A stretch of DNA of 35,050 nt from Verrucomicrobiota bacterium (GTDB lineage: Bacteria; Verrucomicrobiota; Verrucomicrobiia; Opitutales; Puniceicoccaceae): contig JBCDMB010000029.1 in assembly GCA_038744685.1 (NCBI GenBank), forward strand, positions 1 to 35,050, given 5' to 3'. The first letter of the stretch is position 1; every line of letters begins with the position of its first letter. The position numbers and the translations under genes were made by a program. The notes under the pieces are model-generated. The model had not been told where the DNA came from. It saw only the letters and a list, made by a program, of their open reading frames with translations, and did not search any database. Of the stretch, positions 12,542 to 17,160 are shown in pieces.

Positions 12542-13042
12542 ATGAAGACTATTTTGGTACTTGCGTGTTTCCTCTCTATTTCAGGCTCTGTTGCACCATT
12601 TGACCATATTGGGGAAAACTATTGGGTCATATTTGAGGATTTTACGGGAGATGCTCGCACAGATATTGCCATTACCTCGGCGCGCCCTTGGGGAAATGCT
12701 GGGATGTGGTGGTGGATTTACTCAGCACAACCCGATGGCAGCTACACTTATTTCGACGATGTATTCTTTCACCCCAAAGCCTTCCGCATCTATCCACTTG
12801 AAAAAAATGGGGCAGAACTAGTCACATACTATCGGTCGGATTCTAACTCTGGAAGTCTCATTACCTACCGAATTCAAGATGAGATCGAAGAGACCTCAAA
12901 GGTTACGATTTATCCTAAAGAAGGTGATCAAGAGTTATACGAAGATCACTTCTCCTATCTATGGAAGTTTCCTAGAGCGCTCAAGATCCCTACCAATAAG
13001 ATAAGATTCGATGGTAATTCACTGTCGATACAGGAACACTAA
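12542..13042 (+). CDS. Secreted hypothetical protein with FG-GAP/VCBS-like segment
   Basis: 166 residues from ATG 12542, chosen because it gives a clean signal peptide (MKTILVLACFLSISGSVA); an in-frame TTG at 12506 would put 12 polar residues in front. The mature N-terminus reads GENYWVIFEDFTGDARTDIAIT in blocks: YWVIFEDFTGD and ARTDIAITSARPWGN. The DxTGDxxxDIAIT form recalls FG-GAP/VCBS repeats. A Trp-rich GMWWWIY and many acidic residues follow. It is too short for a whole propeller. Likely exported; function unknown. Neighbours give no clue. Confidence 0.65.
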   Translation: MKTILVLACFLSISGSVAPFDHIGENYWVIFEDFTGDARTDIAITSARPWGNAGMWWWIYSAQPDGSYTYFDDVFFHPKAFRIYPLEKNGAELVTYYRSDSNSGSLITYRIQDEIEETSKVTIYPKEGDQELYEDHFSYLWKFPRALKIPTNKIRFDGNSLSIQEH

Positions 13043-13197
13043 CGAGTCCAAGGACGGGTACCTAGGAGTGTGACGAACTCAGTAAACCGCGAGGCCGTAA
13101 GTAATACTTTAATTGTTCGCATTCCAGGGAAAGAGACTGATTGGATGATCGGAATCGGGATGGGCCTTTGCAGAATAAGATATATGGGAGGCACATT

Positions 13198-13217
13198 CAC
13201 GGCGACTGAGCGCCGTG
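13198..13217 (-). terminator. GC-rich hairpin after the GT4 gene
   Basis: CACGGCG-ACTGAG-CGCCGTG, a perfect seven-bp stem placed two bases beyond the GT4 stop codon. It has no U tract after it on the minus strand, so it may stabilise the 3' end instead of terminating. Confidence 0.4.
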
Positions 13218-13218
13218 G

Positions 13219-14439
13219 CTACCTCTTGGATTTTTCGTAGTTGAATCGGTTCTTCGCTTCTATCCAACGGCTCATGTATTCCGTGCTGCGGTGGTGGTGG
13301 TGGCGGAGCATTTGGCCGACGAAGTGGTTTTTGCGGTTTTCGGTAGTAAGGGATTTTAATTGTTCGATCAGGCTGGGTGCCCATTCCTTGGCGAGGAAGC
13401 GGTCTTTGACGATGCGGTAGCCTTGGTGCTGAACCGTTTTCCATAGATCCGGCTTCGTGTAGAGCTCCACAGCGGTTTGGGCGAGACCGGGTGCATCGGC
13501 GTGTATCAGGCAGCCCCAGTCGATGGGCCCGTTCATCGATTCCGCTGCAATGGGTGTGACTACTGTCGGCGTGCCGGAGCAAAAGCCGTCAGCGACCTTG
13601 CCTTTCTGTCCGGCACCGAAACGGAGAGGTGCGAGGTTTACCCGGTAACGTCCGAGCGTTTTCATCGACTCCTCGGCTCGACCGCAGAAGTAGATTCCGT
13701 TTGCGGCGTTCTCTAGTTGCCGGACCTTTTCCGGCTCATAGGAGCCGTATAGGTGAAGCGCGGCGTCGGGTAATTGCTGGCGGATGATCGGCCAAATTTG
13801 ATCACAACACCAGTGGACGGCATCCCAGTTGGGTGCGTGAAGGTAGTTACCTATCATCACGAAGTCTTTTCGGTCTTCGAAAGTGGATGTCGAAGGTAGA
13901 GGCGAATCCAACATCAGAGGCAGATAACTCAACTGAGTGGCAGGCACTTGAAAGACCGATTGTAGGCATTCGATTTCGAACTCGGAAATGATCCAGCTCA
14001 GATCGGAACGAAAGATCGCTGCAATCTCACGGAGTGCCACGTCATTGAAAAGATTCAGGTTACCCCCGTGCTTCAACTGCTGCTCGCGTGCTTCCCGTAG
14101 ACAGTGGAGATCAATGGTATCGAGAATTCGTAAGGTATCGGGACAGGCTTTTTCGATTCGCCAGCCGAATTGCTCTTCCGTCATGTAGCGGTCAAACACT
14201 ACGAAGTTTGGCGCCAGCGATCGCACCCAATGATCGAAAGCGTCATCGTTGACTTGTGATTTTCTGGTCGAAACACCTTTCTTGAGGAGGTCGTCGGAGT
14301 GCTCGGTGGGCTCTGCCGTTGTCGTAAAGGTCACTGACCAATTTACGGTTAAGAACGCATCGATAAGCCCCATCGTCCGGGTGCCAGCAGCACTCGAGAG
14401 GGGCTCGGGGTAGACTTTGCCGATGACTAAGACTTTCAT
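13219..14439 (-). CDS. Glycosyltransferase, GT4/GT1-like family
   Basis: 406 residues, GT-B fold. The N-terminal Rossmann half begins KVLVIGKVYPEPLSSAAGTRTM, the start typical of GT4 enzymes that bind an acceptor near the GxR loop. The C-terminal half shows FVMIGNYLHAPNWDAVHW, LHLYGSYEPEKV and the donor-binding loop APLRFGAGQKGKVADGF followed by SGTPTVVTPIAAESM. It should transfer a sugar from an activated donor, probably for surface polysaccharide. Sugar and acceptor are unknown. It stands alone on the minus strand with ATG at 14439. A second glycosyltransferase (GT9) lies 2.7 kb away, in a different operon. Confidence 0.87.
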   Translation of the reverse strand: MKVLVIGKVYPEPLSSAAGTRTMGLIDAFLTVNWSVTFTTTAEPTEHSDDLLKKGVSTRKSQVNDDAFDHWVRSLAPNFVVFDRYMTEEQFGWRIEKACPDTLRILDTIDLHCLREAREQQLKHGGNLNLFNDVALREIAAIFRSDLSWIISEFEIECLQSVFQVPATQLSYLPLMLDSPLPSTSTFEDRKDFVMIGNYLHAPNWDAVHWCCDQIWPIIRQQLPDAALHLYGSYEPEKVRQLENAANGIYFCGRAEESMKTLGRYRVNLAPLRFGAGQKGKVADGFCSGTPTVVTPIAAESMNGPIDWGCLIHADAPGLAQTAVELYTKPDLWKTVQHQGYRIVKDRFLAKEWAPSLIEQLKSLTTENRKNHFVGQMLRHHHHRSTEYMSRWIEAKNRFNYEKSKR

Positions 14440-14550
14440 TCAGTCGAAGTGGAGGTAAATTGTTATAAGGATGAAACAGGATTCAACTTACGTCCGCAGG
14501 CGATCCTGAATGTGCGTTGCCTTAAAGAAAGCTGGGGACGAAAGAACTTC

Positions 14551-15059
14551 TCTCACAGAGGCGCAGAGCGCACGAAGGATGTTGAGAATAGGATGGTTAT
14601 TCTGGATTTAGATTTCCATGGATTATTCTGGTGATTCCGTTCTTCATCAGTTCCTCCCCAAAATTTAGAAGGTAACCAAGGCGGCAATCGGTGAGTTTCA
14701 AATAGGTAAGAAGCTGCTTCTTGTGCGCCGGATGAATCTTCTCAACCGACTTTAATTCAATGATGACTTTCTCGTTCACGAAAAGGTCCGCACGAAAACC
14801 CTCATCAAAAGTCATTCCGTCATATTCAATGCGAACGGGGTGCTGGCGCTTTGCGGGTAGACCTTCGTTCTCCAAAGAACGAGCAAGGATGGTCTCATAA
14901 ACCGATTCAAGGAGCCCGGGTCCAAGTTTCTGGTGAAGTTGGATAGCGGCAGTAACGATGATTGATCCAATATTGTTTTAGTTCATCAAAATATATACAT
15001 GTGTTCACTATTTTTAATATGCAAGCTTTCTGCTCCGTGGGCTCTGAGCCTCTGTGAGA
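14551..15059. mobile_element. Inverted-repeat-bounded unit around GxxExxY gene
   Basis: A 509-bp segment bounded by 24-bp inverted repeats at 14551-14574 (TCTCACAGAGGCGCAGAGCG plus CACG) and 15036-15059, which match at 22 of 24 positions when one is reversed. The only gene inside is the GxxExxY gene on the minus strand. No target-site duplication was seen. The structure suggests a small cassette mobilised in trans, but the ends may equally be copies of a dispersed repeat family. Confidence 0.5.
14597..14986 (-). pseudogene. GxxExxY family protein, broken by a stop at codon 3
   Basis: The frame from ATG 14986 reads M-N-stop-NNIGSIIVTAAIQLHQKLGP then GLLESVYETILARSLENEG. It continues to the natural end at 14597 with EYDGMTFDEGFRADLFV, VIIELKSVEKIHPAHKKQLLTYLKL and GYLLNFG. 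The signature GLLESVYE (G-x-x-E-x-x-Y) is present and the rest of the family is complete, so only the TAA at 14980-14978 departs from the usual MNENEIG-like start. One change (GAA to TAA) would explain it. Translation could still begin at ATT 14971 or at the TTG at 14875; the latter would lose the signature. Function of the family is unknown, though it looks nuclease-like in parts. It is enclosed by inverted repeats. Confidence 0.72.
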
Positions 15060-15104
15060 ATTTTTTAAAAGGATAAGCGTCAATAAGCGCTGCATAAGCG
15101 GTTT

Positions 15105-15117
15105 CCGGCTACGCCGG
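15105..15117. repeat. Short CCGGC/GCCGG palindrome before gene at 15134
   Basis: CCGGC-TAC-GCCGG, a five-bp stem with a three-base loop 17 bases upstream of the next ATG. It could be the end of a dispersed repeat or a small structured leader. Confidence 0.25.
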
Positions 15118-15133
15118 ACCTCTGACCCTTTAC

Positions 15134-16069
15134 ATGATCCCTGAAATTTGTGAAATACTGACTATGGAGTCCACGATCACCAGCGGTGCGGTCTACCCGC
15201 AGGAGGTTTGGCGGGCGATTGCTCAGCGTCAATATGAGCGCGCAAATCAGTGGACGGATCCCTACCGCGAGAGAAGAGCGAGTGGAACACTTCATCCTGT
15301 CTACGATTTTCTGTTTGTTTATTATCGGGTCAGGCCGACTCAGCTCGAAGTCTGGCATCCGCAGTTTGGCATCACCCTTACTGGTGCTGGTGAGGAGACC
15401 TTCTATCAACATCGATTCTACCGGCATGATTCGAATGACGCGACGCTCGATCCGAGTCGAATGGAGCCGAGTGCGCGCCACCGTCTTGAAATGGCCCTCC
15501 GACTTTGCGAGACGGTTTACGAACGTCCGCCCAAGTTTGGCTGTTTCGGGATGCATGAATGGGCGATGGTCTATCGCGGAGACTTCGAGGGCGAGATCCG
15601 CCATTCGGAACAACTGCCTCTCCGACTAAGCCAGAAGGAAACTGACGCGTTCGTGCGGAGCCAACCGATCGCTTGCAGCCATTCCGATGCGTTTCGATTC
15701 TTCAGCGAAGGGGCAAAACCCTTTAACCGAGTCCAACCCACCAAGGAGACCCGAATCGACCATGAGCAATGTGGCTGCCTTCATACCAATATGGATCTTT
15801 ATAAGATCTGCGGTCAGTGTATGCCCTGGGTGGGGAGCGACCTCTTGTGGCGGTGTTTCGAATTCGCGATCGAGGCACGCATCCTCGATATGCGGGCAAG
15901 CCCCTATGATTGCCGTTCTCTCGGTTTCGATCCCATTCCCATTGAGACGCCCGAGGGAAGGGCTGACTACGAGCGGCTTCAGCGGGGACTCCACGAGCGG
16001 GCGCAGCCGCTACGGAAAGAAATCATCGACTGTCTTCAGGATGTCTTGGTAAGAGGCAAGAGGGGTTGA
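15134..16069 (+). CDS. Protein of the family often labelled '3-methyladenine DNA glycosylase'
   Basis: 311 residues (301 from the second ATG at 15164). It belongs to a conserved family that databases often name 3-methyladenine DNA glycosylase, although it lacks the motifs of AlkA, Tag or MPG, so the name should not be trusted. Conserved blocks visible are HPVYDFLFVYYRVRPTQLE, WHPQFGITL, PPKFGCFGMHEWAMVYRG, CSHSDAFRFF, EQCGCLHTNMDLYK and DMRASPYDC. The many conserved His, Cys and Asp residues suggest metal binding. Likely cytoplasmic. No clear Shine-Dalgarno sequence for either start. It converges on the GT9 gene with 59 bases between. Confidence 0.7.
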   Translation: MIPEICEILTMESTITSGAVYPQEVWRAIAQRQYERANQWTDPYRERRASGTLHPVYDFLFVYYRVRPTQLEVWHPQFGITLTGAGEETFYQHRFYRHDSNDATLDPSRMEPSARHRLEMALRLCETVYERPPKFGCFGMHEWAMVYRGDFEGEIRHSEQLPLRLSQKETDAFVRSQPIACSHSDAFRFFSEGAKPFNRVQPTKETRIDHEQCGCLHTNMDLYKICGQCMPWVGSDLLWRCFEFAIEARILDMRASPYDCRSLGFDPIPIETPEGRADYERLQRGLHERAQPLRKEIIDCLQDVLVRGKRG

Positions 16070-16128
16070 AAGAAAGTTTATCCCGGATCTAGCCTAGGGC
16101 AGCAGTGGGGCGTTTCGCAAACCCTTCG

Positions 16129-17160
16129 CTAGGTTGCCGTCAATAGCTTCTCAGAACTGGATGGGTTTTCCGCTTGAAGGTCCAGGCCGGTCAGGCATCG
16201 GTCGAGCACACTTTCTGTGGAAATCGTGGACAAGTCTCCGCCGGGTAGTGGATCGATGGTCCAGTCGCGATGACGGTAGGGTATGGAACATCCGGGAGTG
16301 TCCGCACTGCGATTTAGAACCATCAGCACACGGAGTTCGAGCGCTACCGCCAGATGAAGAATGCCGGTATCTCCTCCAAGAACCATGCGAGAAAGAGAGA
16401 GGAGGCCTGCGGTTACTAAAAGGGAGTGGCCGGCAAATACAGGATAGGCCTTGGATCGAGCATTTTCGAGCCGGAGTCTGTCTGACGGGCCGCCGCAGAA
16501 CGCGACCTGCACTCCACGGGAACGGAGTTGATCGGCAACCGTTAGAAACCTTTCGAATGGCCAGTCCTTCCTGACGCTACTGGTGAACGGCTGAATCATT
16601 ACTGTGTGTCGATCCGGGTAGAGTCCACATTCATTGAAGAGAGCCGCCGCCTGTTGTCGGTAGCGGTTGGGAAGAACAAACCGGTTGTCAGGTGAATCTT
16701 CCCGAAGTCCACATTCTCTCAGCAGCGTCAGATTCCAATCAATTGTATGGCGGTCGAGTTTCCGAAGAACGGGGCGCGTGTAAAACCGACTTCTCGAGTC
16801 TTTGTACACCGATCCCCATCGCTCTTTGGCTCGACTAAATCGCGTGATCCAGGCAGTTTCTCCATAACCCTGAAAATCGATCACGTGGGTGAATCTCTTG
16901 CTTCGAATCAGGCTGAGAAGCGAAACAAGAACCGGGACCGCAGGCCAAAATTTCTTAACGGCAGGTCGATCAATTGCCATCACTTCATCAACGGATGCGA
17001 ACCCTTCCAGCAATGGGGCGATGGACTTGCATACAAGGAAGGTGATGTGAGCGTTGGGCCTGTTCTTTCGGACTGCGTTCACCGCTGGGAGCGTGTGAAG
17101 AACGTCGCCGATCGATTTGAACCGGATAATGAGTATCCGTTCTTGATGAGAGTCGTTCAT
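16129..17160 (-). CDS. Glycosyltransferase family 9 (heptosyltransferase-like)
   Basis: 343 residues from ATG 17160; the open frame extends 75 codons further upstream but that part overlaps the histidine kinase gene and is not protein-like. The start ERILIIRFKSIGDVLHTLPAV is the classic GT9/WaaC-WaaF beginning (IIRFKSIGDVLHTLP). The C-terminal half has VMIQPFTSSVRKDWPFERF, VAFCGGPSDR and the donor site LSLSRMVLGGDTGILHLAVAL, seen as VLGGDTGILHLA. It probably adds a heptose or related sugar to lipopolysaccharide core on the cytoplasmic face. It is the last gene of the mipA-RR-HK-GT9 operon, 25 bases after the kinase stop, which links envelope sugar transfer to this two-component system. Confidence 0.9.
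   Translation of the reverse strand: MNDSHQERILIIRFKSIGDVLHTLPAVNAVRKNRPNAHITFLVCKSIAPLLEGFASVDEVMAIDRPAVKKFWPAVPVLVSLLSLIRSKRFTHVIDFQGYGETAWITRFSRAKERWGSVYKDSRSRFYTRPVLRKLDRHTIDWNLTLLRECGLREDSPDNRFVLPNRYRQQAAALFNECGLYPDRHTVMIQPFTSSVRKDWPFERFLTVADQLRSRGVQVAFCGGPSDRLRLENARSKAYPVFAGHSLLVTAGLLSLSRMVLGGDTGILHLAVALELRVLMVLNRSADTPGCSIPYRHRDWTIDPLPGGDLSTISTESVLDRCLTGLDLQAENPSSSEKLLTAT

Follow-up and report, generated by a model that had tools for sequence, protein, structure and literature searches.

Inverted arms around a GxxExxY nuclease-like gene suggest a minimal mobile element of undescribed kind across many bacterial phyla

At positions 14551 to 15059 of the window, by which we mean the whole 35,050-nucleotide stretch of Verrucomicrobiota DNA analysed here, a single nuclease-like reading frame lies between two inverted arms. 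The left arm (14551..14577, plus strand) is built from 8-9-bp units (CACAGAGG/CGCAGAGCG/CACGAAG) and has TCTC as its outer end; the right arm (15033..15059, minus strand) is its reverse complement at 24 of 27 nucleotides. The near-perfect inverted ends (22/24) reported by a sequence-only reading of this DNA are present over the outer 24 nucleotides of arms that extend to 27. First-order Markov simulation of both 250-bp flanks reaches their inverted-repeat (IR) score of 21 in 3 of 5000 runs. No transposase lies inside the arms, and the unit is neighboured by a glycosyltransferase gene on one side and an uncharacterised gene on the other. A lone arm of a different cassette type, made of ATAAGCG units and a CCGGC hairpin, follows at 15071..15120 (plus strand). 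Rfam families gave no match in window positions 13000-16500.

The enclosed frame (14600..14977, minus strand; 126 codons, stop codon at 14597-14599 on the same strand) matches the GxxExxY profile TIGR04256 with an E value of 1.9e-41 and 141 bits (curated cut-off 35) and PF13366 with 1e-40 and 139.2 bits (cut-off 22), and these profiles together with its PD-(D/E)XK residues place it in the GxxExxY/PF13366 PDDEXK_3 family. It lacks a usual start. Directly upstream, a remnant start reads ATG-AAC-TAA (14978..14986, minus strand), and no ATG, GTG or TTG follows until 14875, beyond the GxxExxY motif. Because codon 3 (14978-14980) is an in-frame stop and no usual start precedes the motif, this copy is probably decayed, or else a rare start codon is used or the assembly is in error. 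The sequence-only reading's claim that the unit contains only a GxxExxY gene holds for the number of genes, but the copy looks damaged.

The fold model of the window protein (pLDDT 93.1) has as its best solved match 4ic1 (SSO0001; Foldseek E 6.8e-4, Z 9.5, 101 residues), which we take to be a Cas4 protein, followed at lower Z by restriction-enzyme-like and Hjc resolvase entries; a search of solved structures by sequence returned one weak match. Residues E24, D64, E74, K76 and Q88 are invariant in 43 sequences, and Q88 with Y92 presumably resembles the RecB/Cas4 QxxxY motif. The protein is thus predicted, from the modelled fold, to be a small RecB/Cas4-like PD-(D/E)XK nuclease. Folds of the RecB/Cas4 type often belong to exonucleases and not to site-specific cutters.

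The source genome holds six PF13366 matches, one of them a fragment. Each gene stands between inverted arms whose sequences differ, with CACAGAGG-, ACGCAAAG-, CCGCAGATT-, GGACACTGAT- and CCGCTCATT-like units of 8-10 bp; the arms are weak at the fragment and at C5. It had been suggested that the window's 24-bp end might also flank other GxxExxY genes. The exact end flanks none of the other five, each of which has its own arm sequence of a common design, so that a search with one literal end would miss the rule. When the literal 18-bp end is sought in the source genome with at most 3 mismatches, 17 matches are found vs 5 for the reversed control. The window element accounts for two of these, and three gene-less mini-elements with the window arm type (C10:102061-102122, C11:10477-10538, and C47, with one end at C47:257) for five. 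We rejected one literal end as a general rule.

Arms of this design are general around GxxExxY genes. Several searches yielded 139 distinct genes, 131 of them full length and 128 with both flanks. An IR score of at least 18 is found around 93 of the 128, compared with 1.6% of shuffles and 18 of 270 (6.7%) control ORFs in the same loci; the remaining 35 of 128 fall below it. In a first survey, limited to 80 of 574 relatives listed and biased to the alignment used, 64 of the 79 loci with flanks reach this score, vs 6.5% of shifted placements (n=509) and 27% of mispaired flanks (n=790), the latter rate being high because the motif is shared. Among these 80 of 574 listed relatives, the 64 framed loci span about 15 phylum-level groups, as grouped by hand from record titles, with framing in 18/21 Verrucomicrobiota, 4/4 Cyanobacteria, 6/11 Bacteroidetes, 5/8 Planctomycetota and 0/1 Neomarinimicrobiota. 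Each arm consists of about three 8-10-bp units, the sequence of which varies between protein subfamilies. Genomes carry multiple, divergent GxxExxY copies (up to 11 matches). Plasmids and phages were considered as vehicles and rejected, as 7 of 72,556 plasmid records and none of 50,697 phage records searched have a match; two loci lie in viral contigs.

Arm and protein similarity are correlated across the 128 genes (Mantel rho 0.318, reached by 0 of 999 permutations). When arms are permuted within multi-copy genomes (113 of 146 genes, IR score at least 17), the observed cross-genome rho of 0.325 compares with a permuted mean of 0.156 (sd 0.045, maximum 0.297; 0/999). Since within-genome permutations never reach the observed value, arm type, on these statistics, follows protein lineage, and host alone does not suffice to explain it. 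Such covariation could reflect recognition of the arms by the protein as well as co-inheritance of both as one unit.

The arm pattern CRCNRAGNCRCNRAGNCRC was counted in 35 relatives. In the 17 that bear a GxxExxY gene there are 443 matches vs 26 for the reversed control, and in the 18 without such a gene 9 vs 7. One genome, G010, in which the arms also frame other cargo, accounts for 381 of the 443, many of them in long tandem arrays; with G010 left out, the gene-bearing genomes give 62 vs 22. The sequence-only reading took a motif scattered without relation to GxxExxY genes to speak against a cassette. Gene-less copies do exist, yet among these relatives the excess over the control is confined to gene-bearing genomes, often as inverted pairs. 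In G010 (e.g. L310, L305-L309), arm units have expanded in the manner of a microsatellite, with as many as about 14 CACAAAGG copies in tandem.

At the window site, three genomes of the window genus were compared. In G002, a glycosyltransferase gene and the orthologue of 15134-16069 flank the site and the cassette is absent. In G001, the orthologue of 15134-16069 adjoins a GxxExxY cassette from a different subfamily, which has ATAAGCG arms and gene-less copies next to it. The window's lone arm at 15071-15120 is of the type that frames this cassette's gene (by blast, the intergenic region matches four places in L038 at 87-93% identity). Empty sites in relatives, which the sequence-only reading had envisaged, thus occur here (G000/G002) and, as described below, in Flavobacterium (G109/G101). 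In G002 (L326), the place between the orthologues of window positions 13219-14439 and 15134-16069 is filled by tandem copies of an unrelated unit, each many tens of bp long. Upstream of the G001 cassette (L038), a transposase-like gene, presumably ISL3-like, stands beside gene-less ATAAGCG arm copies.

A site in Flavobacterium shows the same alternation of states. Of 150 genomes searched with a 2.2-kb query, 131 matched and 39 intervals were read: 19 from 30 loci, 11 of which had a single flank, and 20 further stretches, with G146, G096, G206 and G194 (gaps of 2.2-2.4 kb) left out of the census. Classed by eye, nine intervals hold a cassette, eight a gene-less arm hairpin, 15 no element and seven other genes. 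Two cassettes have CGCAAAG arms and seven have CATTAAG-type arms; in the latter type the gene lies between two equally oriented arms, behind a full hairpin. Two of the hairpin-only copies are short (G125, G098), and 13 of the 15 element-free sites show an ordinary terminator hairpin. Across 600 bp on each side, the flanks of G109 (cassette) and G101 (native terminator) are 95.7 and 96.3% identical. We also observed (L330-L344, L357-L369) that sites with an element usually lack the native terminator hairpin, as though terminator function had passed to the arm hairpin; G210, one of the hairpin-only genomes, retains its native terminator beside the arm hairpin.

Exchange is also seen in Dolichospermum. 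At one intergenic site examined in 16 genomes, the flanks are adjacent in 12, which hold a type i cassette (3), a type ii cassette (5), a type iii cassette in reversed orientation (3) or a gene-less hairpin (1); the flanks lie apart in G058, G059 and G061 and are absent in G060. Flanks are 96-97% identical among G035 (type i), G057 (type ii) and G052 and G053 (type iii, reversed), with 92-100% identity in the 50-bp bin nearest the site in the pairs profiled, whereas the cassettes share 71-77% identity between types and 89-99% within a type. A second Dolichospermum cassette family is present without the query's flanks, and its matches stop at the arms. Eight copies were read: six have their right flank in common, and the other two each have a context of their own (three contexts in all). 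A third locus (L257), considered as an empty site, was uninformative, its flanks lying apart in other genomes. Within the three types dN/dS is 0.03-0.35, and in the second family the ratio of means over 21 pairs is 0.12. The GxxExxY protein is, by these ratios, under strong purifying selection, and the protein therefore matters.

A second protein family occurs in like arms. In the 35 relatives, 21 of 29 four-helix-bundle (TIGR02436) genes (L156-L185; flanks were usable at 29 of 30 loci) have inverted arms scoring at least 18, mostly of 7-bp units, compared with 2.8% of shuffles and 3.0% of mispaired flanks. One contig of G010 carries a four-helix-bundle cassette and two GxxExxY cassettes of the same arm type. 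Arms common to both gene families can therefore spread with another protein or in trans, and this sharing weighs most heavily against the idea that GxxExxY alone recognises them. We also note that 12 of the 13 relatives with four-helix-bundle genes have GxxExxY genes, vs 17 of 35 overall, and that small genomes lack both.

What emerges is a bounded unit of arms and gene that is gained or lost, exchanged at fixed sites and relocated, and gene-less hairpins of the same arms are found in close relatives. The bounded mobile cassette proposed from the window alone is well supported by the generality of the framing, by presence, absence and exchange at fixed sites, and by relocation with matches that end at the arms, and we hold it very probable that the GxxExxY unit is a mobile or exchangeable cassette. 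With much less assurance, we lean towards the nuclease being the engine of the cassette through a putative action on the arms. The joint reading that we modestly favour is that the window holds a decayed copy of a widespread self-acting nuclease cassette, REPIN/RAYT- or homing-like and belonging to neither.

It is also conceivable, though we think it unlikely, that the arms are MITE-like and are moved in trans by a transposase or recombinase, with GxxExxY and four-helix-bundle genes as cargo that benefits the host. The numerous gene-less arm pairs, the framing of four-helix-bundle genes and the fact that in G010 the same arms enclose genes of two unrelated families speak for such cargo. However, no target duplication is seen in 103 elements, taken from the 113 genes of the permutation set (mean 3.42 vs 3.59 for mispaired flanks), and no transposase lies inside the Dolichospermum and Flavobacterium cassettes read. 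Cargo moved in trans also sits poorly with arm sequences that follow the GxxExxY lineage within genomes and exceed the control only in gene-bearing ones.

Improbable, too, is that cassettes are no more than alleles at fixed intergenic sites, exchanged among strains through ordinary homologous recombination in flanks and arms, while the nuclease serves some other function, for instance in defence or repair. Turnover at one and the same site, seen in two phyla, agrees with this, as do the G109 flanks, which are 86-88% identical to those of G101 over the first 100 bp on each side and 92-100% further out, with the left 100 bp being 94% like cassette-bearing G201. This pattern would fit either plain homologous recombination or transfer accompanied by co-conversion; the resemblance of the near flanks to another species means that plain homologous recombination may suffice for spread within a site. 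Relocation to new contexts with matches that stop at the arms, the reversed orientation at the Dolichospermum site, the multiple divergent copies per genome and the dispersed arm hairpins all argue against it as the whole explanation. Least credible by far is that the gene does not move and the arms next to it are ordinary terminators or regulatory repeats, which would account for Flavobacterium arms that have T-runs and take the place of the native terminator hairpin, but which is contradicted by empty and exchanged orthologous sites and by the far better match between the left and right arms of one gene (mean 25.5) than between arms of different genes (mean 14.9; 79 loci from 80 of 574 listed relatives).

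For the self-acting nuclease cassette that we favour, we propose that the nuclease would recognise its own arm units or the arm hairpin and would cut or process DNA at the arms, and that host recombination would then copy the cassette into the cut place. Arm hairpins, often at the position of a transcription terminator, may act as landing sites. Alternatively, a hairpin might be left behind upon gene loss, which could go by recombination between like arms because the CATTAAG-type gene stands between equally oriented ones. We extend this proposal more tentatively, as a possibility short of our preferred reading: GxxExxY proteins may be the engines of an undescribed mobile-DNA superfamily, in which a Cas4/RecB-fold nuclease reads its own 8-10-bp units, cuts arm hairpins (often terminators), homes in and replaces cassettes in either orientation, with S23-type four-helix-bundle cassettes (7-bp units) as a sister class that would explain 23S rRNA intervening sequences.

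The arrangement, which recurs across many bacterial phyla, suggests a minimal mobile element of a kind so far undescribed. In the portions of the literature covered for GxxExxY, PDDEXK_3 and the arm motif, with subscription papers outside this coverage, no description of such cassettes was found, and GxxExxY appears in passing mentions. A motif-named and often multi-copy family of many phyla would thereby gain a likely role as a mobile-element core gene, and the arms would explain many scattered hairpins of 8-10-bp repeats in bacterial genomes. The natural series from empty site to hairpin to cassette A to cassette B makes the mechanism directly testable.

Terminal inverted repeats and short gene-less copies are shared with MITEs and insertion sequences, but the GxxExxY cassette has no target duplication, transposase or single conserved end. 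PD-(D/E)XK homing endonuclease elements likewise have a nuclease gene that a given site may carry, lack or exchange, and occupied and empty alleles of one site are found here (G109/G101; G000/G002). Unlike such homing elements, the cassette has no intron, intein or conserved coding target, its arms are divergent and cleavage of a target is only putative. REPIN/RAYT systems (PMC3116915) resemble the cassette in that one small enzyme gene lies next to inverted palindromic repeats, further copies of which are dispersed as gene-less hairpin doublets, and in that the repeat type matches the enzyme lineage. RAYTs are described there as single-copy Y1 (IS200-like) transposases incapable of self-mobilisation, whereas the GxxExxY enzyme is PD-(D/E)XK by profile and fold and not a Y1 HUH tyrosine transposase, its arms are built of successive 8-10-bp units, and complete cassettes occur in multiple copies and replace one another at fixed sites.

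The intervening sequences of 23S rRNA with an S23 four-helix-bundle ORF, for which PMC4990558 lists a transposition remnant and a self-mobilising ORF as hypotheses, resemble the cassette in their length of a few hundred nucleotides, single small ORF and terminal inverted repeats (about 28 bp in the intervening sequences). They lie inside 23S rRNA and are excised by RNase III (PMC4990558), whereas the GxxExxY cassette is intergenic and its protein is unrelated. Stand-alone four-helix-bundle genes in the relatives nonetheless show the same inverted-arm architecture, with 7-bp units, which ties together two orphan small-protein families and, with them, the question of where 23S rRNA intervening sequences originate.
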